Shown: positions 1 to 63,647 of the stretch, piece after piece
Position numbering within the stretch: the stretch's first letter is position 1
Layout: every line of letters begins with the position of its first letter
Assembly (NCBI RefSeq): GCF_047663525.1
Contig: NC_092602.1
Span: 8,987,501-9,051,500 of the forward strand
DNA length: 64,000 nt
Direction: 5' to 3'
DNA from: Anas platyrhynchos
Lineage: Eukaryota; Chordata; Aves; Anseriformes; Anatidae
Position numbers and translations under genes: made by a program
The notes under the pieces: generated by a model
The model's database searches: none
The model's input: only the letters and a program-made list of their open reading frames with translations
What the model was told of the DNA's origin: nothing

Positions 1-9994
<9,994 letters not shown>

Positions 9995-29279: not shown

Positions 29280-32200
29280 CTGAGCCCCGAGGGCAGAGAG
29301 AAGAGCAAGTCAAACCTACCGCAGCAGAAAACCACTGAAAACCCACAGAGATTCCCCAGGGAAAGGCAGGGCAAGCCCTTAGCATGCCCTCTTCTCCTCA
29401 CTGTTTCAAACATTCGCTGTCTGTTCAAAACAAGCATGTCTACAAGGACCATTTGGCTCTGTACAGGTTTCTTACTCCCTCCGTTTGCCTTGCTTCCAGA
29501 AGCCTTGACCCGGAGTGGGAATGTGCAATGCGTCAGCTATTTCACAATGATTTCCCACGTGAGGATACTTGCATGAAAGCAAAGTGAGCCATCCTGTTCT
29601 CCAATGCACTTACACACATTGCGTATCAGAAGGGGGCAGAGGAGCATCAGCTCAGTCACTCTGCACCTCCACGTGTTGGCTGACTGCACATTAACTCCCA
29701 CACAAATACAGCCTCACCTACTGCTTTGTCTTATTGTTAACATGGATTTTAGCCCAAGCCCTGCTGTCACCCACACAGAAAGGCTAAGTGCCAGAGAAGG
29801 TAAGCTCAGCCCGCCCTAGCTATGGTTAAGTTCTAGCCTGGGCTTACTGTCACTCGTGTCTGAATTTGTAATGGTAAGGAGGGAAACATCACTGGAGTCC
29901 TGCCACTCCTCCAGCACACTGCCACCAAAGGACAGGCAAGTTCTGTGGTACACGAAGTTGGCTGGGAAAGCATTTCAGGACAGGGAAATAAAGAGCATTA
30001 CTAAGACATGAGTATGCCCAGAAGCAGTGGGCTAGAAGTAACACAAAGGCTTTACTACAGGGATAGCTCCATGCTGCTCGAGTACCTATCACCCAAGTAT
30101 GGCATGCAAAAGAAAGTTATCCTTCCTCACTCTGGCTGTTTTTCTTAGGAAACACCCTGTAGAAGAGGAGGACTCTCATCAATTTAAGGGTGGCTTTGGA
30201 CACCCTTGGACACCCCTTTGGGCTTTTGGAGCACCGAGAGATGGGACTTACCGGTATGTCTGGTAGGATGGGGTAGGCACTTGCTGCTCTCTGGCTGGAC
30301 CCTCCCTCTGGTCGGTCGGTGCTGGCGATGCTGCAGTAAAGGCATGGCTGCCGTTCTGCTCGGAGATCCAGAAGGGGTAGCCACTGCTGACGGCGATGGG
30401 GTTACTCTCTTCCTTCACATCCACATTCTCATCTTTCTCAAAATCTGACTCACAGTGGGGAAAGAAAGAACGGGGAAAAATGAGAAAGGAGAAGAGAAAG
30501 CCAGGGCTCACAACGGTTTATTAGCAGCGGAATTAATTGCAGGATGGTGGAAGGAAACGCACTATTACCTCTTCTGCAGTCATACAGCCTTAAGGAACTA
30601 GCCCTTTGCTGCTGTTTTCTGTCCTTACACTGTGGCATTCAGTCCTTCCCTGTCCCCTCTCCCTAGCTGTGCCACTGCAAGTAGTGCCCTGAACTGGAAC
30701 ACCGAATGATCAAGCTTAAAAATAACCTAACAAAAAGAGTAAAGGTTACTTTAAAATGGTATCAGTTCCCCCATCTGCATCACGACCCAGCTGTACAAGC
30801 GCCAGTGCTGGCACAACTGCACACACAAGAACCAAGGCAGATGGGCAGAAGAAAGCCATGGGCGACACTGCAAGCTGGCAGCACTGTTGAAAAGAAAATG
30901 TTTTGAAAGCGCAGCCTTTGATCACATGTGGTCACAAAGCATGGCTGGGAGGCTGGTGCATGGAGAGCTGATGAGCAGTCACTAATGACAAGTGACATGT
31001 GAGCAGGCTCCTGTGGACCATACACAGTCAGAAGACTTCCTAACCCCTTCCTCATCCTAACACAAACTGAATGTGTGTGTGGGGATATCAGGCAGAAATT
31101 GAGAGGGAAAAGCCTCACAAAGGATGATCAGTCATCATTTGTTGGCTCATTCTACTGAAAGACATCTCTCTGAGCTGCTTTCCTGGCTGCTGTCGTGGGT
31201 GCAAAGTGGGTGCCCTTCAAAGATTACGATTAAAACACATAAGCAAGCATCAGAAATTTTAAGCAGCTGAATCCGTGTCACTGTGCATGTTCCCTGGCTC
31301 CCCATCCCAGTTCCCTGCTCTGTTTGGCCAAACTTCTGTGCTGGGGCTTCCCTCCAGGGCTGCCAGCTGTGGGCAGGGGCAAGCGGTGCACTCTCTGCAT
31401 GCTGGAAGCATCATGTTGGATTGGGGCTGCACTACTTCCCTCTCACCTGCATAGAGCAAAATCTTCTTCAAACAGGGATGCGCTGGTCCTGTCTCACACT
31501 TCTCCCTAATCATTCAAGCTACCCCTCGGTCATTCCTTATTCCTGGCTGTCCTCCCTGAATTAGGGAATTAACTCCACTTTCCAGCTTTGCAAAGCCGTA
31601 CGCAACACCCTTTGGGTGCCCTGCCCAGGCCACTCTCCCCAGACAACAGACAGAGCAGAGCAATGTCACTGCCTGGTTTCCTTCCTGTGGCTTAGGCAGT
31701 ATTCGGGACTGACTCTGGGTTTGTTGTTATCAAGATTACCACGTTCCTCAGCACCAGACTCCTTTTCCTCAGGCAGCTTCCTCTTCTGGCCCTTGGCTGG
31801 ACTGGGCTTCTGGGATTTGGCTCGTCCTTCCCTGGGAAAGAAACAGTGCAATGGAGTAGTTTGCAGTTAGCTTTCTACCTAGATAAATAACACAAGGGAT
31901 GCTGGACAAAGGCCTGGAAGACAAAAAGATAGGATGAACCTCTCTGATGTCCTGCATGTTACAATTCTGCTCACAAAGCAACTTGACAGATCCATGGGGA
32001 ATGTTTGCCACAGCTGATTTACAGAGTTGTGCTGCCTGCCACAAGCATCAGCTTCCAGGGAGAGCTCTTGCCCCACAGGATACTGGGGATAAATCAGTAA
32101 AGGGGTTGCTGCTCCCTTCATGCTTGTACAAAAGGCAAAATCAGAGTGGAAACCTCAGCAGGTTTTTGCACTGAGTTAGTAACTGTACCCAGTGTTGGAT

Positions 32201-35200
32201 ACACATACTACTAGATATGCGTATAGTAGGGTGGGTGTTTTGCTTAAAAGCAGCCTTTTTCCTAAATGGAAAGCTTAGTCAGAAATGATCCTATTATGAG
32301 GAGAAAGAACATCTCTGACAGTTTTGAAGGTTAAGTAACAAGAGTCAGGTTGGGCCTTTTTTCTTCAGGATTTTTTTTTTTCAGGCATAAGATAAAACTA
32401 AATCTCAGATATTTTCGTACTATTTTCTGCTTGGGGAAAAACAAACAAACAAACCAACCATTTTTTCCCTCTCTATTACCAGTTTGTGGGTTGCATTCAA
32501 GATTACTTATTTGTTTAAACTCTCATCCACTGGCTGCGCTCAGACCAGAGAGACCTCACTTGTACTGGCATTCGACTTCCCTCTTGCAGACAAAACTTGC
32601 TGCTGGAAGAGACACTTTTCCACAAAAGAGAAAAGGAGGTGTGAGAGCCCTCAAATGTCAGAAGCAAGCTGATCTCACAGGGACAGAACAATCTACTGTG
32701 GAGTCCTTTTACCTTTATCACCACTATTCCCATGTCAGATTCCAATCTAGATCCAAACTACAACACAATGTAGGTATCAAATCTGTCACGTTTCACACAT
32801 TTCTGTAGGAAATTCTCTATTTCCTCCCATTCCCCAAGTCTCTTGGGCGGCTTCTACGCAGCATCATTCCCAGATATGGATAAATGCAATGTCCGGAGCA
32901 AAATGCTCTGCAGAACTAGCTGGTATACTTTGCTCTGTGGACTTGTGTAGAATTCACAAGTAAACTCTGGTTGTATATAAATCGAGATGGATAAAACAGC
33001 TTACCGCCGAGTGTTCTTCCCGTGCTCCCGGAAACCTTTAGCAAATGGATTGTTGTCAATCTTCAGCTTTGTGATCTTAAAATAAAGGACCAAGATTCAG
33101 TATTGTGGTAACTGGTTGGGCTCATTATTATTTCAAGACCTTCACCTCAGTATTTATCACAACAGGTTTTGGGGGAAGAAGGGCAGGGGCAGGTGTTTGG
33201 GGGATGCCCTTGCCACAGCATCTGAGCTCTCCCAGCAGTTCCCTCTATTAATTAGGAAGTGAGATATAGAGAGAAGTGACTTTCACAGGATCAGTGGGAA
33301 TTTGAGTGGTATTGATCTGACCAGACACATATACAGGGCCAGTACCTACATCTGGACTTCTGTCTCTACTTTTTACTGCATTTGGGATTCTGTTGATCAC
33401 TGACAGGGCACTTAATACAATTAGTGTGTACAATTCATCTAATCCCTGAGTAGACATTTTCTACAAGAACAATAACATGCTGATTTCTTTCCCCTGTCCA
33501 TCACAGGCACGCAGGGTACCTAGCACTGAAGGAGACATCTTCCTCTACATGATTTCTAAGGACAGAATATTTAGCAACGTGTCAGAAGACTTGAACACTG
33601 TACCTGCTCGTTCTGGTAGGCAGTAACAGAAGTGAAGACAGTCTCAGGGAAGCTGAAGACTTGGAAGATGCTCCAGCGGACACTGAAGAGGTCATCTGCC
33701 TGCACAATGTGGAAGCGAGGCTTGTAACGGTGCATGGAGTGGAGGATGATCTGGCACAGAAACAAAAGGAGAAGGTTTCCATGTGCAACCACTGCTAATG
33801 CACTGTGCAAAGTCTTCTGTGGAGACTCTCGGGACATCCCTTTCAAAACAGAGGTTCCTGCCTGGGGCTGGTGTCTTCACCTAGACAGCAGAGACTAAAA
33901 CCTTCCTTAGCAGGTAGTTAAGAGAGCAGAAAGGCCGGGCTGAGGAAGGAAGAGAGGGCCCTTGGATATCTTTTAATTTCCACAATCTAATTTCTCGCAC
34001 ATCTCATTTCACTTTCAACATCTATCTGCAATTAATTCCAAGAGAGAACGGCACAAAGGCCAGCTGCAACCTACGTGCCCATGTTGATCCAGAGTGTTGT
34101 TGGTGAGCTTCAGTTTTTGGAAGGAGACAGGCTCTTTCATCCAGTGGCTGCCAGGAGCTGGGGAATCTGGGTGGACGTAGGTGCGACAAGGGAGCTGGGG
34201 CTCTGCTTTTCCAGCAACTTCCCACTGATCTTTATTCCACTGTGAAGGGAAAGATGGAAATCTAGAGCTTAAAAAAACTACTTTTGTTATAAGGAGCCCC
34301 AGCAACTTTGCTTCACTGCATGATTTAGTGGATTCCTCTGAGGCATGCAATCCTGACAAGTAGCAGATTTTCTCTCATGAGCCATGATCGTGTTACCAAA
34401 ACACCTCCAAGTTTAGGCCTCATTTTTCCTCCCTTTCTCCCAGTGGTTGTCAGAGAAGTCTGACATTAATCACGATCAAAATAGTACGGCTTACAATGAA
34501 GATTAGTTACCTTTCCAGCTGCTCCCCAAGCATAAGTGACAAATAACTGCAGAGAGGTGTAAAATCCACCAATTACTTCTGAACTTTGTCCAAGACAATT
34601 TATTTATCAGCCTGGACAGTGAAGCATAAAGATTAATCTGTTTCAAACAACGATGGAAGGAAAGCATAACGTCTATCATTTAAAGTACTTACCTTGTACC
34701 TGAAGTTGTCCACTGGCACAAAATCTACCAGCATGAGGTACTTGGCATATGGGATTAAGCCAGAGACTTTGATTTTGCATTGTGGAAACATGCGTCTGAA
34801 GGAGAAATTAAATATACAGCATAAGGATTTCTGTATAAAGTGGATACTGTTTCATGATTTACTCAAGCAGCAGGTCACGTTTACTCACTGCTGTGCAAAG
34901 TTCTGGTAGCAGTATTTCTACAGGCCAGCTACTGAACGTTTTTACTCTTATTGATGTATTGATTGTCTAATCCTATGGGTTTAGGTGGAATAGGCACTAA
35001 GAGGGCAGCAGTCTCTGGTGGCCTGACATGCTTATTGCTTTTGTTCTTCTGACTCCTATAATGCAACAGTGGAAAACTTAAAGAAAGCACTTGGAATTTG
35101 CATGTAGTTCCTAGCTTTATGCAGCTAGCATGGACCTGGAGCACATATTAAAGGATTTTCTAGTGTGGGTTGTGCTCATCTGAGAACAGATCTAGCTTTC

Positions 35201-35700
35201 CATTCCAGTATTCTCTACCACCACTTTTATCTTCTGACTTCGCAAAAAAGCTTCAACACCTACCTCCCTACCCAAAGGGATTGCTTTAGCTCACAGCAGC
35301 TGACACAATACGTTACAATTTCATATTCCTTCATTGCAAGCTCCCCAATACATGATTTAAATTTGAATTTTAGAGTAGCCTGCTTACACTGATCATTACC
35401 ATTCTATGCCACGTTCTCATCTGCACTTGCAGAATCAAACCCAGATATTTACTGCCCATCTGCTCCTGCCCACAACGGAGGCAAAATAAATTCAGGGCAC
35501 TTTCCAGAGCAACCTCCCAGTGACAGGAAGAACATCGGTGTTAAGTACTGAGATAAGAGCAGAGAAGATTTCACAACACATCAGCCCCACAGTGACCTTT
35601 TGCACTTCACAGTTTGGACCTCTAGGACATCCTGAAAACACAAGTCTTCTGCCAGAGGCAGGGAGATGCGCATAACTGGCTAACAGTTTAAGAGCTATCA

Positions 35701-35755
<55 letters not shown>

Positions 35756-35967
35756 AAGAGTGCTGGAGTTTTGCAAACAGATTGGAAGGGTGTGGTTTGG
35801 GCAGCTGTCCTGCTCCCCTCACCTGCCGGATTTGGTGATGATCATCTCAGTTCCTATCTGATGAAACTTCATCCAGAGCCCCATGTCCTCCAGGGTGACC
35901 ACGATGGAGCTCTGCGGGTAGGGCTCCAGGCTGGGGGAAGGAAGTGCATCACACGGTGCTTTCACGT
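28853..35967 (-). CDS. TBX6L: T-box transcription factor TBX6L (VegT/Tbx16 family), exons 2-9
   Basis: A sequence-specific nuclear transcription factor. VegT/Tbx16/Tbx6L proteins act in mesoderm and paraxial mesoderm formation. Eight minus-strand coding exons were placed by splice sites: 35967-35823, 34795-34693, 34239-34075, 33750-33604, 33075-33005, 31831-31740, 30444-30252 and 29279-28853. All seven junction phases agree and the joined frame has no stop. The T-box runs from [20 protein letters not shown] through [88 protein letters not shown] and [18 protein letters not shown] to [18 protein letters not shown] basic stretch [11 protein letters not shown] follows. The C-terminus is rich in proline, serine and tyrosine and ends [12 protein letters not shown]. 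These eight exons give 447 codons plus the stop. The first coding exon is not certain. The symbol rests on T-box subtype and C-terminus; VEGT or TBX16 would be equivalent names. Confidence 0.92.
30252..30444 (-). CDS. TBX6L: TBX6L exon: acidic linker
   Basis: Acceptor TGAGTCAG, donor TACCG|GTAAGT. The acceptor was chosen over a nearer AG four bases upstream because only this one keeps the frame from the previous phase-1 donor. Encodes [33 protein letters not shown] and [20 protein letters not shown] resembles a sumoylation consensus. Confidence 0.88.
31740..31831 (-). CDS. TBX6L: TBX6L exon: basic post-T-box region
   Basis: Acceptor TTTCCCAG, donor GAACGTG|GTAATC. It is 92 nt, phase 2 in, phase 1 out. 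Encodes [20 protein letters not shown] then [11 protein letters not shown]. The KGQKRK cluster is a plausible nuclear localisation signal. Confidence 0.9.
33005..33075 (-). CDS. TBX6L: TBX6L exon: end of T-box
   Basis: Acceptor ATTTTAAG, donor CGGCG|GTAAGC. A 71-nt exon encoding [20 protein letters not shown] then NTRR. It contains the NPFAKGFR C-terminal helix that inserts into the DNA groove in T-box structures. Confidence 0.95.
33604..33750 (-). CDS. TBX6L: TBX6L exon: T-box, IILHSMH to AYQNEQ
   Basis: Acceptor TGTGCCAG, donor GAGCAG|GTACAG. It is 147 nt, phase 0 on both sides. Encodes [36 protein letters not shown] and [13 protein letters not shown]. The FPET...VTAYQN segment forms part of the DNA-binding and dimer region of the T-box. 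Confidence 0.96.
34075..34239 (-). CDS. TBX6L: TBX6L exon: T-box, WNKDQW to QHGH
   Basis: Acceptor CCTTCACAG, donor GGGCAC|GTAGGT. It is 165 nt, phase 0 on both sides. Encodes [37 protein letters not shown] and [18 protein letters not shown]. The [12 protein letters not shown] motif is diagnostic for T-box proteins. Confidence 0.96.
34693..34795 (-). CDS. TBX6L: TBX6L exon: T-box, RRMFP to NFRYK
   Basis: Acceptor TCCTTCAG, donor TACAAG|GTAAGT. Encodes [19 protein letters not shown], then [15 protein letters not shown], the conserved core of the T-box fold. The length of 103 nt fits phase 2 in and phase 0 out. Confidence 0.95.
35704..35757. repeat. (AAAT)n microsatellite
   Basis: About 13 perfect AAAT units inside the intron just 3' of the first T-box exon of TBX6L. 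Confidence 0.95.
35823..35967 (-). CDS. TBX6L: TBX6L exon: start of T-box
   Basis: Acceptor CTCCTAG, donor GGCAG|GTGAGG. Enters in phase 1 and leaves in phase 2. Encodes [19 protein letters not shown], then the T-box opening [17 protein letters not shown] and [10 protein letters not shown]. The codon completed at its 5' edge ends in AC, so the preceding exon must end one base into a codon. Confidence 0.93.
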
Positions 35968-44900: not shown

Positions 44901-47900
44901 TTTTTTTCTTTAAGCAGCTGGGTTGGATGTTTTTTTCCTGGTAAAAGCTGTCGTCTGCCTTCAAGGTGTGCTACACGTGCATTTGCATTCAGCCATTCCC
45001 ACACTGGAACCCACGCAAGAGGCCCCACCAAAGGCAGCCCTTTGTAGGGCTGAAAGCCCCGTGCTGAGTCCCAAATTGTGTTACCCCAAAATCTTCCCGG
45101 CATTCTCAGCAAGCAAAATCACATTTGGTAAAACAAAACAGTTGGTTGGAGAGGGCCTGTTGGTAACAGCTCGATGCTAAATTCACAAGAGGGTCCCTGG
45201 ACTGAGGCGCAGTGTGCTGCGGGGACTGGCCACATGCCTGCGCCCACCCTGAGGAGGGCTGCATTTAGCAGTGCCTTTTGGGGAAGGGAACATGTGAAAG
45301 TTGCCCATGCAAATGAAAAGTAGTACATTAGAAGTTTAACAGAGGCTTTTCCTCTCGCGGGTTTGTGGATTGAGGTATCTGACCACAAAGCTGTGGCTCC
45401 TGAACTAAAAAGCACACGCTCTGCTGTCTCCTCTTTATCACATCCGCCCTCCCCAGCCCTCCTGGAATATGCACCCACTTCTCCCAGCAGTTAGTTAGCA
45501 TTGAGACAAGAAGGGAAATACTTAACAGCCACTTAACACTGAAGGCTGATTTTGGCCTCAAAGGCTACAGTCCAGAGTCAAATGCAAAATATTTCTGTCT
45601 AGAGCTCTTTCAAGTTTTCACAGACTCCTGATGTTAGATGCACTGTTTTCCTGTCAACCCATTGTGTCTCCCAGACGCGGCTCAGCACTCTGTCCCGCTC
45701 AAATCCACAAAAGATACCTTTTTGAAGGACTTTACAGCTCAGAAGCAGCAAGACCAGCTTTGTCACACAGCAGAGGAAAGTGCCAAAAGCACAATGCTGC
45801 ATAGTGCTGCCCGTCCTCTCCTGCACTGGGGAATGGGAATGCTCTCTGCCCCTGCACACCTGGGGCCCTGCAAGGAAGCATAAAGGATCAGCCTTAGAAA
45901 ACAGGCAGCGAACAGCTCTGGGTTAACACCCGTGCAGAAATATTTTTGTACGGATACACACGCATACACAGGAAAACGTAAAGAGAAGCATTAGGCAGAG
46001 CTTCAAAATTGCTGGCGGTTCAATTTAACCATGAACTGAGATCAGGAAAAAATCCTGGGCAGAATGGATTGTGCTGAATGGAAGGCCAGCTGACAGTGCT
46101 TCAGCAGTCTGCTAAAAAGCTGATCTTTACAGGAAAAAGCAGCAGGCCAAACCTAGAAGCTTGTATCTAAACTTTAGGGGCTTTTGAGATCGCAGATACA
46201 CTGTAATACTGCTTTGGTTTCTGCAAAGGATTCCTTCTGTTGGTGTGCAAGTGTTCATCAAGGCAAGAAATTAACAGATAAAAAGCCCAACCTGAACGAT
46301 GCGAGTCAGTTTGCAAGGCATTTTGGTTTGCCAAGGCAGATTTATTCTGTGAGAATCCTAAGAAAGTTTCCATACACTTTGTATCATAGCAAGGGTCTAA
46401 TCACAACATGAAGTCAGTAAACAGAGCATAATTCCCTATCAAAGGGACTGCCTTCAAAGAGTTTATGAAAATGAAGATTTAAAGGTTTTAGAATTTAAAA
46501 ATAAAGACTTGTGAGCTCTACAGAGCTGAGTAGAGAACTTTGAGAAAGACACTGAACAGCACCAGAAAGCATTGGAGAACAGAACAATTAAACTGTATGT
46601 AGAAGATTTTGATTCAGAGCGTTTTACAACAAATCGTGTTTCATTTTACTAAGGTATTTATGACAGCATTTTTTTCCTTTTACATTATTATTTATCAGTT
46701 CTTAAAAAATAACAAGTTATATAGCCACAGGTTGCACACTACTCTGCCCACACCTCACAGGAAGAAGGGAACTGAGCCCACAGGATGTCTAACCAACCTG
46801 CAGAGCTATTTATAGGATCTCCCATAAAAACAAAGTGAATACCAAGACAGATTCACACAGCACATCCCGCAAAACTGTTTTTGAAAGCCGATATAGAGCA
46901 TTATGATGGGACACGTAATCTGTAGGGAAGTCTGAAGCCAGTAACAAAAAGCTGGAAATATCTACCCACTTTAAGCAGAAAGTCCTTGGATAAAATCCAA
47001 ACCATACTTTTTCTCACCCAACTTGCTCATCCCCTGGTAGCAACACAATACTGGTGTCCACAATAGCCAGATTCAGGTAAGAATCCTTCTAAATCACCAA
47101 TAACAGAAAAAAAAGCACCTGTCAGATTTCATGGATTCCTCAAGTCTGCAGGGGGATGAGGCTGTCATGAATGTACGCTACTTTACATGATCGAACACAG
47201 CTTCCTCTTAGCCATTTTTCTGCAGTCCCTAGCTTGTCTAGAATTTTCCTCCATTCTTCTTGTATTACCAAATTCCTCATACTCAGTCTTTGTTGCTGCC
47301 AAGGGCCAGGGTACAAACTCCAGGCAGGATCACAGACCCCCAGTTCCCTCCCCCTACCCAGCAGATTGTGAAACATTTATGACCTGGCTCTTATGGCTCT
47401 AGAGGTGCCGAATGGCCTTCCCCCCCCCTCCAAATCTCAGCTCCTGATGGGCAGCTACAGACCAACTTTTAGCCGGTTTGGTCCGTAGTTGTGGATTTTA
47501 TTGCCCAGTTTGTCTCTTCAACTCACATTTGTAAGCTCCAGAGTAGATTTTTCCCTGGGTAACACTCTGCAGCTCAAAGAACTCTTCTTGTTTTTATTAC
47601 ATCCTTAGTGATTAAAGGGATATTTAAACCTCACAATGCTCCCTGCTGTGAATATAAAAGCCTGGCATCATTTTGGATAGATGTGTTTTAAAAAAAATAA
47701 ATTAAAAATTAGCCCTCCTATAGCAGACAAATGCTTTTAAGTTGTTAAAACCATCAGGCACTTGAGTGATTTAAATACATTGTTTGCAGTTCCTTGAGAG
47801 ACCAAGGGACAACCCATGGCTTTGAGCTATCTGAACAATTAGACAGACGAGTTCCACTTGGAGGGAGGACAATGGAGGTGTGTAATGACTGTATGATACT

Positions 47901-48442
47901 GAAAATACTCGATTTCATCTACTTACGAATAAATGACTTAGAATTATTTTCCTCTCTAACCTGGCAATCACTAATGCACACATAACAGGTTCCATTCCTG
48001 AAAACATAATCCTTGCTTTTGTGATGGAAAAACTGTTTTTAAATGACTGGCACGTTTCAAGCTAATCTGTGCCTGTCAGCCAAACGTAGGTACAAACAAC
48101 AATATAATGTAAACTCAATCGAAATATCCAAATATCCAAGATCTGTTAAGAAGAGTGCTGGGGAATATGCAGGAGGAAATGAAATCATATTTGAGAGCAA
48201 ACATTCCTTCTGAGCTTTAGATGGTTATCAATAATGGCCTTACTGGTTTTGCCACCCCCTAATGCTGTAGTCACTAGTTCAAGCTTCTCCAGGGAGCTAC
48301 TGCCGGAGTTAGATCTGGTGAGAGTTAAATATGCCTGCAGTGCAGGTTTGGACTCACCGCTAAGGAGCTCAGAGCTTTCCTCCTCACTGCTAGCTCGCTT
48401 TACTGGTTGGTGCTGCTCAGTTTCTTCCTCCTAACATGAAGT

Positions 48443-48466
48443 TTTTGTTTGTTTGTTTGTTTTTTT
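48443..48466. repeat. (TTTG)n simple repeat
   Basis: Four to five TTTG units followed by T7. Confidence 0.9.
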
Positions 48467-50601
48467 GAAAAGATTATCACAAGGTGCAAGGAATATTCAC
48501 ACTTGTGCATACACTAGAATGTGCACCTTGTGGCCCATCCTGAGCTTTTACTGATAATTTTCTCATGACCGAGGCATTTAAAAAGGAGCTTTCCTGTCTG
48601 GATCCTCTGTTGTCTATGATGGTAACTCACATTGCAGCCATTCCCCCAGACACAGCATCTTCAAGAAACCTGTAGGACCTAACTCCTCTGCATGACTGCT
48701 ACGCTTCTGTCAAACTGGGCTGCAACCTGGTTAAAAGAGTTATGGGGGAAAAAAGGCAGTGAGACCATACAAGTCTAACTGCTGCAGAAAGTCAGGCCAT
48801 TGAGGGGGTAGAGAAATACTCTTCAAAAGATGAATCTGGTCACTGTTTCATGAGATTAAGTCCACACTGTTTTGCCTAGCTACTACAAATAATTGGCATA
48901 TTCATAAAGATGGCTCTAACCTCAGTCTCCAGCAGTTCCAATGGCAGTTCCAACAAGCCTGCCTAATAAAATTAGTCCTGACTCATTAATATACAACTCC
49001 TTAGATACGTTTCACATATACCTGTCAAAGGCTAATTATGACAGGACTACTCAGTATTTAATCTTTCTGCCATTCCATGATGCTCCCATTACATGAATTC
49101 TAGGTGGTGAAGAGCTAATCCTAAAAAATCTCAGAGGAAAGTGTTGAGAATACTCTTACACTTCTGGGGAATATCCTGTTGTCTCAGCACTCCTGGTGAC
49201 CTACCAGTCCTTCACTGATTTACTAATTAGCCTGTTTTATCAGTAAAAGGAACCCAAACACAAAAAAGGAACCATCATTCTTACCATGCTGTAACTCAAA
49301 TCTGCCCTACGGACTTCTTGCTGACTGTGGTCTTGAAACACTCTCAACTGCCTCTGTCTCTCATCCTTAACAGTGCTCCTACCACCACAGATGGAACTGT
49401 TGGTGGAAAAGTAAAATGGTGGGTGGTTTCCACTGAAGTGAGAAGCAGATGTTTGATACAACTGGAACTTGTAGTTAAAAAACTACTTACTGATACCTTC
49501 TTGCAGCTGCATCTGTTTTCCTAGAAGCCTTTTTACATCTGTATTGTTGTTGATCTTCAGTTGGGTAACCTGTGACAGAAAAAAAAAAAAAAACAAGGAC
49601 AAAGAAAAAAATGGTTGGATCAGTAGAGTCAGAGAAACGAATGATGAAAAGGAAAGGTGAAAAATGTAAATAAAATAAACAAAATAGGGGAAGAGAGAGA
49701 ATAAGGGAAAGAACCATGTTTAATCGTGCTAAATGTTCTCTGATCTTTCAGAAATGGTTGGTATTAAGCAGCGCATAGAAACTACTGTTGACAATGTAAA
49801 AAGATCAACTGCTGAAATCAGAGAATATTACTGCCCAAACAGTGCTAGAGAAAGGTAACCTCTTTACCAAATCCATCATTTTAAACAAATACAATGGCTT
49901 ATGAGATAATAAAAATTAACTCTACCCTAATGAACCTCACCGGCTTGCTTATTTTTTTAACTATGCTTTACCATGGAATAAAACAGAGCATCTTTTAAGA
50001 GACATAATTACAACGTGCAGCATATATTTTAGTCTTACTTTCAGAAGGAATCTCCACATTTCATAAAAAGGGGTGGATGACAGCACATGCTAGAAACAGC
50101 TGTAAAGTCACCATGTGTTATACAATTTTCCCAGCACTATTTCACTATGCCAGCAGATACTGTGGGGTGACAACGCCTGGTTCCTATATGCTGTGCAGAG
50201 AACGAGGACAAAAATTACTGCCAAGCCTGGTGATAATGGGATGGGATTCTGCCTGCCCTATTCGTTATCTACCTCACCTAATTCCAGTCTATACCGCTGT
50301 GAAAGGAGGTACACATTAACAGCACCTCATATTCTCCTGAGTTTTGTCAGTAACACAGAGTTTTAACCCCCTGATGATTTCAACGCATTATTCCAACTTA
50401 AGCTTCTGGGCTCCCTGGAAGGCAATTTAGCGATGTGTGATAAGCAGAAGGCCAGGCTGGATGCTCTGGTGCTTCTCCCCTTGCAGCTGTTGTTGTTAAA
50501 GCCAGCTACTGAGTTCTGAGGTTTCAAAGGCTTCCACTGGGCAAAGCCATGGCAAAATTCCACTGCAGCATTTTATTTTTTTTTATTTTATTATATCTGA
50601 A

Positions 50602-50637
50602 GTAGGAAAAATGATCAATGTAGGAAAAATGATCAAT
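50602..50637. repeat. Perfect 18-bp tandem duplication
   Basis: GTAGGAAAAATGATCAAT occurs twice with no spacer. Confidence 0.95.
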
Positions 50638-52580
50638 TTTGTTAATGAACTAAAGCAAACTCAGAGTCCAAACCTCTGTCTCTCTCCTACTTATACACAC
50701 TCTGCATTGAGAGATGTTCCTTTGTCTCATGCAAACTTAAAGACGGATTGAAAAGGACATGAAAACAGTAACCTTGGAACTGTGCTCGGCTGTCATGGCC
50801 ACAGAGATCATTTCAGGGAATACAAAGGCAGTTATTGCACTGCAGGGTAGGGTGCAGGTATGCATGCTGGCCAGCACCACGTGAACCTGAGCTGGTATTT
50901 CTGTACCAAATGCAGAATGATCTGAAGCCAAAGACAACATAAGCGATCAGGATAATAGACAATGTCATCAAACCTGCTTGCATTCCTGCAGTCCGCTGTG
51001 GTTTTGTAGAAGTTGCTGGTATCCTGCTTCATTTTTAAATAACAGCTCATGGGCCAGAGGGAGCCTATAAAATTTAAAGAGCAGTCGTGCTCTAAGGGAC
51101 AGGATAGAGGGTTATGGTTAGCAGCTTGGAAGGACTGGTTTAGAAACCTGGAGGCAAAACTTTGATATCAAAACGCATCTACCGTCACATCTTACTTCCA
51201 CTATGTCTTTCTGACCTCTTTGTCTTGTATATCCTCTCCAGGATGGAAATACAGCTCCTCCTCCCTTCACATCACGTTGTCAAGGAGTTGTTCAAGGGAG
51301 GTATTGCTGACTTGAATTGCTCTCCCTCTCTCCTGACTTTCCCCTAAGAGTTGCTTGGTATCACTTAAACTTTTCTTTTGAACACCACGGTGTTCAGCCA
51401 CCTCCATCTATAAAACGTGTTAATATTAAGGAGGTTACAATATAGAGATAGTTTATATAGCTTTTTAAAATAATTTTCTGCAGTAAATGCAACGCTTCTA
51501 TTTCCTTGTTGGATGCATAACCACACATGTGAAAGTAGCATAGGGATGAGCAGGAAAGTGGCAGGGCTTCTTTCTGATAGTCTGTTGTAAAGTAAACTGG
51601 CAAAACCCCACTTAATTCTTATTGCCTTACTATCAAAGCTACAGGTGAACTGGAGGGAGAAGGGATGGACTGAACATGGCAGAAGCTTTGAGCAGTTAAG
51701 AGTAGCTTCATTGACTGATGGCTCTGTGGTACAACATTCATCAGCATCAAGGAGACAGAGGGTCCAGGCCTGAAGCTAGCAGCTGCCCGGAGGAAAATGA
51801 TGTCTGTATGAAGGGAGAGAGCAGAACTGCGTGCTGTCACTGAAGGGTTGATGCTAGATTACCTTGTGCTCCAGCAGAAGCAGAAGTGCAGCTGTCAACA
51901 GAACATGCCAGACAGCTGACACAACACACAAAGCCTTCCTCTTCACCTACTCCCTTCATCTTCATCTTGGGACCATAGCTCTGCCTCTCCTTTGACATTT
52001 GTTCACATCGTACATTGATACATTTCAAATCTGCCCAAGTTATTTAAGAGGGCCTGTGAGATGAAACATTGATCATCCAGAAGGGAGTCGGTGCAAACTG
52101 AGTGAAATGCATAAAGCAAGCATCTTCCATGCTCAAGTTTGAACCTCAACAACGACCCTGAGAAGAGCTTTCTTTATCTCAGGCCCATCTTTTGTTCAGA
52201 AACTTGATAACAGAGACCTTGTGTCAATTAACAGGAAATAAGCTATAGTGATAATGCCAAATTTTCCCCTATCTGCTACATGTTTAGGTCTCACAGTATA
52301 TATAAAACTACATTACTGCTATCTTAGGTGACAAAAATTATGAGTGTATTGGGTGCCTCAGATGACTGACCACTTTCTCCTACCTGGCCTTGGCACCAGT
52401 ATTCTTTGCCGTTGGCCAAAGCTGCAGCTATGGCAAGGCTGGTGCCTGCTTTGGCACTGGTGTTGCGAGCCATCTGCAGACAGGTTTCCTGAAGACTCTT
52501 AGAGAGGAAGTGTAGAAGGGCTCCTTAACTCCTGTTCTCCATAAGAGCTGTGTTTTTACTTGTCCAGATCCTGTGTTTAG

Positions 52581-55030: not shown

Positions 55031-58000
55031 GCAGCACCACATAGTTTTAACTGTATTTTATTAGAAAATAAAATTGTAAATTATTTAAGACATAAAAATT
55101 TCCTAGCCTCACATTCAGTGGATTTTTTTTTTTGACAAATAGTTTCAATTTTATAGAATTGGAAAATGGATGATAAAAGGGTTTATTGAAAAATTTGCCA
55201 GCTAGTGGAAAAACTCTGATACACGAATCATTTTTTTTTGACCCTCAAAATTAAGCCAATGAATCAATGGTGTTGTTAATGAAATAGGTGTGGAAAGGGA
55301 ATATCAACAGAGCCCAGCTACAGAACATACCAAGAATGAGCCAGCTTCTAGTCTGTCATATTCAGTAAATATCACCAGCTCGGCTGCTGCTGCTTGGAAA
55401 GTCACCAGGATTTCCTTGCAGGAACAGTATCAACCACTGAGAATGGGGGAGACAGCTGTCAAAGAAAATGATATTCCCAATAAACACTGCCTCAGGGATC
55501 ACACAAAGACAGGTATTGCTAAATGGAGCTTTATTTTACGATTTCCTTTTCTGGAACTTATGTAGATGACGTCCACTTTATCTCCAAAGTTAATCTATAT
55601 GCTGTAGCCATGAAAATTTCAGGGAGAATTAATTGAGGCATTTTAAGTTTCTTAGTACTTCTTTCAATCAATGAAGAACAATTTAAAATTATAGCTTGTT
55701 CCTATTTACTGTTTGTCTGAGGAACCTCAGAGTACATCACCATTTTTATTTACACACTTTACCACACCCAGGCCTATTCTTTGTAGTCGCCCACAAATTT
55801 TATACTTGAATTTCTGATTAGCAAATAAATTTCCATTTTTGTTTGGTCTTTTGATGTTTCAGTGGTTAACTGTAGTATTTGAAAGCTCAAAAGTTTAAAG
55901 AAGTATTTATTCTAAAGCATCTTTTTTCAATGGGAATTTTAGTTGCAGAAATACTTCTGTTGAGCTTTAGAGCTTACAATATAAGTCTATGACCAAATAG
56001 AAGCTGATGATGCTATTGTCATTGAAAGCAACAGTAATCATATACTTCAGTATTTTGTTGAATCAGACACATATTGCTGGAGAAATGTTGTCCTCCTCCT
56101 CTCTTTCTTTTCCCCAGCAGACTCTTTGGAATTGGAAACATTTCCATATTTTCATATTCTTTATACCTACTTTTCTATTTGTCTTTGGGGTTCCAGGTAA
56201 CATGACAATTACTTCTCTGTGCTTTGTATCCACATTATTACTGATGCATGCATACACTAAAACTGGGCATTTTAATATTGTAATACCGAGTTCCATTGAA
56301 CTTGCAGGTTCTTTTTATCACAAGTGTAAATGCAGGATGTTATAGGAGTGCATATTAGCACATATTTACTCTCCCATTTCAGTTCAATTATCATTGTCTG
56401 AAAGTGAACTCATTAATTTAGACAGTAACATTTCCAGAGCAGTCATCTGAATTATGTGCAGTTGTTAAAGGGCCTTGTGTCTGCTTCTTAACAGCTGCCA
56501 ATACACATGTCCATGGAGCTCAGCCTCAGGAACCGCTCTGTGTCCTGCAGAGGGAGAGCTCCAGTGCTCAGACGAAGCTAAGCACCTGTTATCCCAGCTG
56601 AATAGGGACATATTTGTAGCCATGGGGGAGGCAGTGAAAGACATCGAGGGATTAAAAGGACTATGAGATTGTAGTCTTTCAAGCAAGCCTGTACTGCTTC
56701 TCTGGTTTTTGCTTGCATTGAGAAAACCCACTATATTAACTTCCAAAGAAAAGTACAGGCCTGGTAAAACTTGACATTGCTCAGTTTATTTAGAAGATTG
56801 ACTTCAGAGACAACGAAAAGCATCCTGGTGCATCCAACAGAATGCCCGTAAACACACTTGGCTTATTTGGCTTCTATAGAAAGTGAGTCTCTTTCTTCTC
56901 TCAGTTAAATGAACACAGTCCAACAGCACTACTTAAATGCCTATGGATAGTCCTAATTTAAAACATTACCAATGCAATTAAATGGCTTCTTTATGCTAGC
57001 AAAGCAAAGGCAATCACACCCACATTCTCAAAGAGAAACTCTTGAACTTATTTTTTGCAGCAATACTTTAACATGTGCACTCCCGAGCTGTTATTATGCT
57101 CACAGAAGCCAAACTGAAAAATCATCTCGTAGCGCAGCTACTTGCTGTGAGACAAATGTGTCAGACGCTTTGTTATGGTCCCAGGAAAGCCCATTTACTT
57201 ATTAAGTATAGGAAGTGTTTCCAGCAGTGCTGTCTATTGGGAAAGTCATAGCAGCACTGTTATTTGTTTGAACTTGCGTTGACTACTTGAGGGCATAGCA
57301 TTGCAAATAGATGTTGTGAGCTCAGTAACTTCCACTGTGAATTTCTAAACCTTAATATTTTTTTCTAACCCACTTTAACTTAATGGAAATCTAATGTACG
57401 GTCTAGACAATCCTAAGAGACATATTTCCATATTCAAACTACTGCTTTTTGACATTTATATAGAATAGTGTTTTTACATGTTGGTTCAATTAACAAGTTA
57501 ACTGTCTTTGAGAATTCATCTAGTGCCATATCTAAAAGGAAAAGAGAAAATGATCACTGCAATCTTATTGAAGGAGTTACATTTGACATATATGCACACA
57601 TTTAAAATAGAAACTGTGACTGTTCATACATTTGGGTGTGCAACTTAAGGAAATTGTATCTCCAGTGTGACTTACATTAGAAGTGTTCTGTGATTCTCTT
57701 GTAAAGTATGAAGCTTTTCTGCTCACGTATCATACTTGAACAGTATGTGTTCAGTGCCATATTAGATAATGCTCCATGAATGCCTATTTGCAAATAAAGT
57801 TCATTTGCCAATTGTTTCTTGTGAACAGCCCTCCATATGTGGCAAACACCTTTGAGAAGTAAAAAGAAAAAAAGGTGAATACATAGACAGGTTCCTAAGC
57901 TAACTGGAGCTATACATTAGAAGAACACCAATTAAGCACTCCCACATGAAGCACTGTCTAAAATACTGATACCTGGCCTTTCAATGGTAGCCAGGGTAGT

Positions 58001-58873
58001 ATCACTAACTAAAATAAAATTAATCCCAATCTGATTCTCATCTGCTTTTTCCATATATGAACTTTGTTTATATTCCACTTATACCAGAATTCACTGTTGT
58101 TTGAAAAGTCTTTGAAAAGGAAAGGAGAGAAATAATAGGCTGAGAAACACTGAAAGGGGGATATATCACTGTCTGATCTCATAGCAAAAACTCCTTTTTA
58201 ACACATATGTTGACTTAGTTTAGACAGGCAGTTTCCTTTAATATGACAATGTACTTAGACATTGTGAAGTGTTCTTCCCACTGGGATTATATAATTGAAC
58301 GCTCTTGTACTAAGCTATATACACAATCATTTAATTGCATAGATAAATCCTAAATGCAGGCAGAAGTGTGATTTTACTTTTTCCCTTGGTAGAAGAGACT
58401 TTGGTTTTCTGATTTTGCAATCAGTTCACAGCCTCAGCTACATCTCACTACCCTATTTCATGTGCATTTCTGCAAGATAAGTACAGTACTTGATCTTAGC
58501 TCCTGGTGACTTTAGGTAACAGAAATTATACCAGATTTTTCTTTAGGCTTGAAAGCTACGTATTTCTTTCCTCATCCGCACATACATTTTCATCCCCAAT
58601 TAAAATTTGCCTTAATGAAACTAACTCAAAGCAGTTTACAGATCCATTTATCACTTACCCCTGGACTCAGGTTACGCTGACACAAACCCCATGCCACTGC
58701 AATGAACCAGATGGAATTAATCAGGATTTGCAATGATGAAGCTGAAAACACTATTTGAGCCCTTTGACACAAGACTGTCAAAAAATATTTTTTCCCTCCC
58801 CCGTTATAATATGCTGCGTATCAAGACAATGAAAAACACCCAGTAGGCTTCTTACAGGAGGGAAGGGAAAAGG

Positions 58874-60196: not shown

Positions 60197-62162
60197 AGCA
60201 TTAGTGGCTTCCTAGTCATTAGCTAGAAGAGAGGGGAAGGAAGGAAAGGTGTCAATTAGCACTCAACATCTACACTAACATATTCACCATTTTCTTTAGA
60301 GGCAAGAGCAAAGCTCCTTCATTCCAGTTTTATGTAACTAAGAAATCATAGTAATTATGCCTGTTGCCTTTTCTTCTGAGAACTCCAACATATTTACTCT
60401 GCCACCTTTTTCCTTAAAGTATACGAGCTATGTGCTGTGTGTAGAACTGCATGCAAGCTACATCCACCACAGGTTTTTCCACCTTCCCCAGAAATGTTAC
60501 TGCCACTACCCAAACTAGAACATCGAATTTAACAAGTGTGATCCTACCCTGGATGATAAGACTTTGTCTATTCTCACCTGGCCCCTCTGCTGCCAGTCAG
60601 TGCATTTTGTCTCCTAATCAGCTTCAGCTGCCATGCCTTCCTCATCTTTTCCTGGTCCCTTTCTCCCTGACCATATGGTGTTTGTTTGGGCTGCAAAAGA
60701 CATTAATTTCATTATTTATGAGAAAGTCTTGTTCTAATAGAGAGTGAGGAGAGAGTGAGAAGAGAATGAGAAGGGAGAGAGAACAGAGAGAAAGAACAAG
60801 TACTGAACCCTAGTGTTTGATAAAATTAAGGAAGGTATTTGCTGTCTTCCTTGATTTGGTAATGTTTCATTCCATAACTAAAATATTAGCTTTTGAAGAA
60901 CAGCATTTCTGAGGCAGTGGGGAGAAGTCACTAACAACAGCTGTTGTTTCAACAAAATTAAGTCTTCACAGCACACTAACCGCTACCTCAGACACAGAAA
61001 TTCTCGATAGTGTCAATCATATAGATTATACAATCGTTATGCCAGACAATGAAACTTAGATGAAAATTAAACACAGACAAATCCAGTACTACATACTGGA
61101 ATGATGGTGATCAGTGAAAGATACTTTACAATGTGTAAAACCAATGCCAAATAACAGAAGAGCTATACACAAGTTATTCTCAACATTTGAGTAAAAGTAA
61201 TTTTTTTTCATTTGCCTGGATGTCTCAACTGTTTGGGTTTTCAGTAGCCAAAAATACTTGCTTTTTAATAAAATCTGTTTTTCTAGCTCCAAGTATTCTG
61301 GATAAAAATGACATTTGAGTTGGACAATGTACTTTATTTGTCAAATTGTTTTCTGTTTTTAAAGCTCTTCCTACGTCAGAGCAGTAAGGATGGTACAAAA
61401 TACCATCTTTCAATACATTTCTGTCTGCACATGATAAAGACAGCTTCTTAATCCACAAGCTGACTAAACAAAGACCTTACCTTTAAGTTTACTTTAGGCA
61501 CCAGACATTCCTCTCCCTATAGCCTCATAGGGAAAAACAACAACTTATATACAGGAGCAGTATACTTCAGCAGCAGCCATTTATTCGTCTGGCACAACAT
61601 TACAGACACATCTGGGAACAGAGATTTCAGAACCAATGGTTATCCGGTATATCCTGAAGACAGATGCCGTGTTTACATTTGATATTCAACTCTGAAAGGA
61701 GAGAGTTGGTAAGTTTGATCTTGCCTATACTTGAATGTCAAGCTAGTGCAACTAGAATTAGACTAAAATCAAATAAGTGATGAGTTTCCTTTGAATAATT
61801 AAGTGCAGTTTTACCATAAGGCATATTTTTTTTTCTCCTTGAAAAATCCCACAAAACTACCCTGGTAGGCTTCAGAAGCTGCCGTATTAAGTGAATGCTT
61901 CTGTTTGTACAGGATTTGAAGTTCTTGCTCCAAAATACCTTTAGGCAGGATGCTTCAGACAAACATATTCTTGGCATCTTCTCTCCAGAATATGGTTCCT
62001 GGGACTGAAGGACTATATAAACCGTACTTACAGAGAGAGGATTTCACACATACAGAATGGCTCCATTAGCCTAAGTCAGCAGCAATGCCCACTATGGAAG
62101 ATGGCTCACAGTCAAACAGTGCACTGTTCAGCCATTAGCAGAAGAATGGGATTTGAAGGAGA

Positions 62163-63641: not shown

Positions 63642-63647
63642 TTTATT
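63642..63647 (-). terminator. Polyadenylation signal, minus strand
   Basis: AATAAA on the minus strand, preceded by TTGTTGTTGTTTTTTTCT. It presumably serves the gene beyond the right edge. Confidence 0.45.

Follow-up and report, generated by a model that had tools for sequence, protein, structure and literature searches.

A probable dead T-box gene, once in tandem with TBX6L, traced through three decayed exons

Introduction

Does the DNA upstream of TBX6L hold the remains of a second T-box gene, and is that gene dead, or does it persist as a fast-evolving protein gene or a spliced non-coding RNA? Formation of the mesoderm is steered by T-box genes of the Tbx6/16 group, which have a tangled history of gain and loss among vertebrates. 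The question arises from a preliminary description of a stretch of 64,000 nucleotides, hereafter the window, in which five blocks upstream of TBX6L were likened to its exons 2 to 6 and read as either a decaying duplicate of VegT/Tbx16 type or a fast-evolving T-box-derived gene.

We conclude, with a probability of roughly 0.87, that these remains belong to a second T-box gene, once in tandem with TBX6L, which arose through duplication of DNA with its introns and is now a dead pseudogene. Titles and abstract openings of the open-access literature contained nothing on such a relic, and we provisionally regard it as undescribed in print.

Materials and Methods

The window corresponds to C16:8987501-9051500 of a genome of 1.26 Gb in 42 contigs. 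Protein profiles were compared with both strands of its DNA by a frameshift-tolerant aligner under two frameshift penalties, the profiles being built from TBX6L alone, from TBX6L, TBX3 and TBX5 together, or from all T-box genes of the genome. In a separate, anchored scan every AG acceptor on either strand was scored (approximately 9,700 sites in the window for each exon), and P values were derived from 60 shuffled windows. Real control DNA covered 80.5 kb on each strand, including 50.5 kb from elsewhere in the window. A plain Pfam T-box scan of the genome gave at least 72 matches at E ≤10. A column was counted as conserved if 80% or more of the T-box genes in the genome have the TBX6L residue there; these genes are named after the resemblance of their sequences.

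Results

The setting of the locus

TBX6L itself is intact (Table 1). The exon ending at 35967 is the most upstream identified and lies 13.5 kb from the relic described below. A perfect AAAT tetranucleotide repeat of 12.8 copies (35706-35756) occupies the TBX6L intron directly after the TEMIITK exon. Grouping of the Pfam matches, with two strays (E 4.8 and 8) excluded, gives at least 16 T-box genes besides TBX6L in the genome. Besides one TBX19-like gene there are two Brachyury-like genes (G000:C1:83520196-83526794 and G000:C3:84112592-84125709), both labels being judged from their sequences. Contig G000:C16 carries TBX2, TBX4, TBX6L and TBX1, while TBX3 and TBX5 are found on C20; C16 may thus join parts of two chicken chromosomes.

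The first kilobase of the window holds a plus-strand exon of a CRK-like gene (CRKL), matching a Crk-like protein in PDB at E 1.7e-91; CRK, at 3e-39, was rejected as the flanking gene. What appears by eye to be the first CRKL exon lies just beyond the window edge. An AATAAA motif stands at 63642-63647 on the minus strand and, because it sits within a UTR-like stretch, a minus-strand gene, the next upstream of the relic, may end near that position.

Table 1. Coordinates of TBX6L, of the relic exons and of further candidate blocks in the window.
Feature	Position	Strand	Remarks
TBX6L, intact	30252..35967	-	Open frames and splice sites; Pfam T-box matches coincide
TBX6L exons	35823-35967, 34693-34795, 34075-34239, 33604-33750, 33005-33075	-	
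TBX6L later exons	31740-31831, about 30252-30444, another near 28.9-29.3 kb	-	
T-box RMFP exon relic	51706..51803	-	98 nt (TBX6L: 103); acceptor present, no donor; frame shifted twice
T-box IILH...YQN exon relic	50773..50921	-	149 nt (TBX6L: 147); full length, AG and GT kept
T-box TQLKI...KGFR exon relic	49497..49569	-	73 nt (TBX6L: 71); strong acceptor, weak GT donor
158-nt block, claimed HPDSP exon	51196..51353	-	Unsupported; rank 5,044 of 9,739 acceptors
Last 73-nt block, claimed exon after T-box core	48358..48430	-	Unsupported; rank 449 of 9,744
Tentative LW.KFH..TEMIITK exon remnant	58790..58852	-	No donor; 7 kb upstream of RMFP block; may be chance

Three decayed T-box exons

Three of the five blocks are homologous to T-box exons. 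They lie on the minus strand, upstream of TBX6L and in its exon order, with the intron-exon borders of T-box genes and with broken frames, and their acceptors at 51803, 50921 and 49569 are the top sites outside the TBX6L locus for their respective exons in the anchored scan.

In the IILH block a single frameshift follows the RF residues. The unanchored scan with TBX6L, TBX3 and TBX5 places the match exactly at 50921-50773, through all 49 residues, with P 8.5e-9 per window over both strands (3.7e-7 under the milder frameshift penalty); the match scores 66, whereas 100 shuffled windows scored 33.3 on average and 41 at most. P was 2.9e-6 and 2.1e-6 with the all-gene profile and 2.4e-4 with TBX6L alone. 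When anchored, the block ranks first among 9,739 sites outside TBX6L (P 5.3e-8), none of 60 shuffles reaching its score of 57.0, against a control-DNA maximum of 25.0.

The unanchored match of the TQLKI block begins at residue 1 and covers 49524-49569, with P 1.2e-3 and 2.2e-4 per window for TBX6L, TBX3 and TBX5 together, 0.0058 and 0.0029 for the all-gene profile and 0.008 for TBX6L alone. This block too is first when anchored, among 9,754 sites outside TBX6L (P 2.4e-4; 0/60 shuffles reach its score), and scores 42.5 against a control-DNA maximum of 27.0. A GTAAGT lies 6 nt beyond its weak GT donor.

Unless anchored at its AG, the RMFP block gives a weak signal. Its unanchored match at 51727-51796 shares or takes first place outside TBX6L when TBX6L, TBX3 and TBX5 form the profile, at non-significant P values of 0.62 and 0.24; the all-gene profile puts it in third or second place (P 0.78 and 0.48), and it is absent among the matches listed in the TBX6L-only scan. 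In the anchored scan of the window its acceptor ranks first among 9,742 non-TBX6L sites with P 0.019, two of 60 shuffled windows attaining the score; this score, 24.0, is twice the maximum of 12.0 given by 11,781 acceptors of control DNA.

Joined across one frameshift, the IILH and TQLKI relics match the Pfam T-box family with 35.4 bits (E 1.3e-8; cut-off 26), and the IILH relic alone, with the frameshift read through, matches at E 0.0037. Pfam was silent on the parts of the IILH relic before and after the frameshift when each was taken alone, on the RMFP read-through and on one RMFP frame, and found no T-box match in the raw six-frame pieces. A PDB search with the joined reading returned 14 sequences at E ≤10, all of them T-box proteins (TBX3 best, 4e-9), while eight of its nine non-self matches at E ≤10 in the genome were T-box genes, matched in the IILH part (best E 6e-4). 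The relic is not among the at least 72 matches listed by the plain Pfam genome scan because that scan neither reads the frameshift nor joins the exons.

These results decide between homology and a chance resemblance selected by eye. Two of the five blocks, the 158-nt block and the last 73-nt block, are indeed resemblances of that kind, and alignment to T-box profiles is significant for neither; for the other three, the scan statistics, Pfam, genome matches, anchoring and control DNA all argue against chance. Alignment is significant for the 149- and 73-nt (TQLKI) blocks, for which chance is already refuted, and for the 98-nt block when anchored, and we give chance a negligible likelihood as an explanation of the whole. 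Thus far the preliminary description stands: a tandem, same-strand, intron-containing T-box relic adjoining TBX6L is well supported, and the splice sites of its three confirmed exons are mostly intact, as had been stated, with three of three AG acceptors and two of three GT donors. Conserved T-box intron positions are present, the acceptors lying at homologous borders and in homologous phases with one donor in three lost; a processed pseudogene is rejected, the blocks being 784 and 1,203 nt apart and each starting at an acceptor.

Missing exons and doubtful remnants

A local scan for the HPDSP exon between the neighbouring blocks found nothing beyond chance under either frameshift penalty (113/500 and 248/500 shuffles do as well), the top match being five residues inside the 158-nt block and non-significant. 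Nor was the exon after TQLKI recovered from its interval (367/500 and 430/500 shuffles do as well under the two penalties), the third-best match in one setting, at 48380-48454, overlapping the last 73-nt block without significance. Downstream of the relic no later TBX6L exon was found (367/500 and 273/500), nor was an LW.KFH exon within 51.8-54.8 kb (446/500 and 427/500).

Farther upstream, LLGVFHCLDTQHIITGEGK at 58790-58852 on the minus strand is like a TEMIITK-type exon in one frame, with borderline statistics (P 0.027-0.13 per window; 3/500 and 0/500 shuffles of 51.8-60 kb do as well); it scores 32-36, against 32 for a rival plus-strand match at 3423-3470 that is taken as chance. Also taken as chance were scraps resembling TQLKI (46050-46079; P 0.043-0.13), IILH (56447-56494; P 0.2-0.68) and KIKLTN (61690-61731; P 0.22-0.78). 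Finally, an open stretch on the minus strand at 52384-52473 starts with ATG and runs to a GT donor; approximately 100 nt upstream of it lie an AG and a polypyrimidine tract. Judged by eye, it would continue in phase into the TQLKI block, and among families it matches only an unknown domain, and that poorly (E 0.085).

Loss of T-box function

No single open frame runs through the whole T-domain of the relic. The TQLKI exon departs from the T-box frame after NNN, and stops flank KGF on both sides in KGF's own frame. The NPFAKGFR segment, which contacts DNA in T-box proteins, is not kept. Because of the frameshifts, the stops and the undetectable HPDSP exon, the relic cannot work as a T-box factor, and it is probably without protein function today. 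Decay beyond T-box function and loss of the DNA-contact segment, both noted previously, are therefore borne out.

The relic might instead be a fast-evolving protein gene of T-box descent, still alive and translated in other frames. The earlier statement that the frames no longer join is correct in part, since the open frame of the 149-nt block continues in phase into the 73-nt block for 73 codons in all; moreover, five of six splice dinucleotides are kept across the three exons. By hand arithmetic, however, one open frame among three over 49 plus about 24 codons is not rare, and if each dinucleotide survives with a probability of about 0.53, at least five of the six would be kept in about 0.14 of cases, so that both the kept dinucleotides and the joined open frame are within chance expectation. 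Taken literally, without the frameshift, the open frame matches Pfam T-box at E 8.4e-5 with 23.0 bits, below the cut-off, and a genome-wide search with it found no T-box gene. A living gene is also hard to square with frameshifts in each of the three exons, with stops in the T-box frame and with the failure to find the HPDSP exon; the analysis gave no positive evidence for this second alternative of the preliminary description, and we consider it very improbable.

Persistence as a spliced non-coding RNA would be in keeping with the acceptors and two donors still present. Neutral decay could nonetheless have left as much at the divergence measured here, the donor of the RMFP exon has gone and no Rfam family exceeds its threshold in the window; we give this explanation a slender likelihood and retain that of a dead pseudogene.

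Age and placement

The relic carries changes at 23 of the 86 first and second codon positions within conserved columns (p 0.27, interval 0.18-0.37), equivalent to a JC distance of 0.33 (interval 0.20-0.52). Third positions differ from those of TBX6L at 58 of 97 sites (0.60), compared with 0.37-0.62 for seven old pairs of T-box genes in this genome and 0.52-0.61 between TBX6L and five other T-box genes. Since its third positions are as divergent as those of old T-box pairs, the split between relic and TBX6L looks old; such divergence counts tend to be underestimates, the alignment having been selected for its match. With a neutral rate for birds of roughly 2e-9 per site per year, a very rough guess would place the death of the gene some 100-260 million years ago, a figure that leans low and has intervals allowing for death soon after duplication. 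The introns of TBX6L and the relic share no similarity beyond chance (best E 0.25), and the genome contains no other long copy of the relic, three short matches of 40-67 bases being found; a recent segmental duplication was rejected on these grounds.

Among 11 columns peculiar to TBX6L, a comparison that omits the middle of the IILH exon, the relic has the family-majority residue at six, that of TBX6L at two and neither at three, one of the last including two filled-in residues. Because the majority residue is kept at six columns and TBX6L's at two, there is a hint in these residues that the relic was an old paralogue and was not copied from TBX6L. The relic branch is long in the tree, at 2.39 changes per column, and none of eight groupings tested was rejected at 0.05 (p-AU 0.063-0.46), values for this long branch being 0.27 with TBX6L and 0.46 with TBX2/3. 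Hence, while the decaying duplicate described previously is upheld, its assignment to the VegT/Tbx16 type is not settled by the tree.

Discussion

Under the pseudogene reading, a T-box duplicate would have arisen beside TBX6L by DNA duplication, introns included, and would have lost its function long ago, with neutral decay since. That decay would have broken the T-box frame in all three surviving exons and carried the HPDSP exon beyond recognition. We infer that the gene died long ago and that its ancestor was a paralogue which separated early from TBX6L. More speculatively, and with considerable doubt, a separate T-box paralogue may have stood beside Tbx16/TBX6L in early vertebrates, leaving the relic as its final remnant in this lineage and perhaps surviving elsewhere, for example as the orphan genes tbx6l/tbx16l in fish or Tbx6r in frogs; if so, the tandem pair would predate tetrapods.

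A mapped dead copy adjoining TBX6L points to a former tandem pair and gives an exact locus at which reptiles, amphibians and fish can be searched for a living partner. It could also assist in placing certain orphan T-box genes from other vertebrates. Anchored, frameshift-tolerant scanning recognises a heavily decayed coding exon where a plain domain scan misses it.

The relic resembles TBX6L (Tbx16/VegT type) in strand, exon order, acceptor phases and exon lengths, which agree within 5 nt, with 39% residue identity over 59 aligned residues; it differs in its broken frames, in one core exon not found and in the majority residue at 6 of 11 TBX6L-peculiar columns. TBX2/TBX3 provide the top match of the joined reading in PDB and in the genome, at 43-47% identity, a closeness that may come only from TBX2/3 being near the ancestral T-box. 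In TBX2/3 the RMFP and HPDSP parts share one exon, whereas the RMFP match of the relic stops at the border of TBX6L, TBX1 and Brachyury type, which serves as a hint only because the relic's donor there is lost. Xist is a non-coding RNA that arose from a dead protein gene, and the relic is like it in having decayed exons with some splice sites kept, although the relic is known here from DNA alone. Xenopus Tbx6r is a divergent paralogue of the Tbx6 subfamily, expressed and needed in development (PMC2877776). Like Tbx6r as described there, the relic is a T-box duplicate with introns and a long branch that blocks placement (PMC2877776); the relic is broken, whereas Tbx6r is expressed and developmentally needed (PMC2877776).
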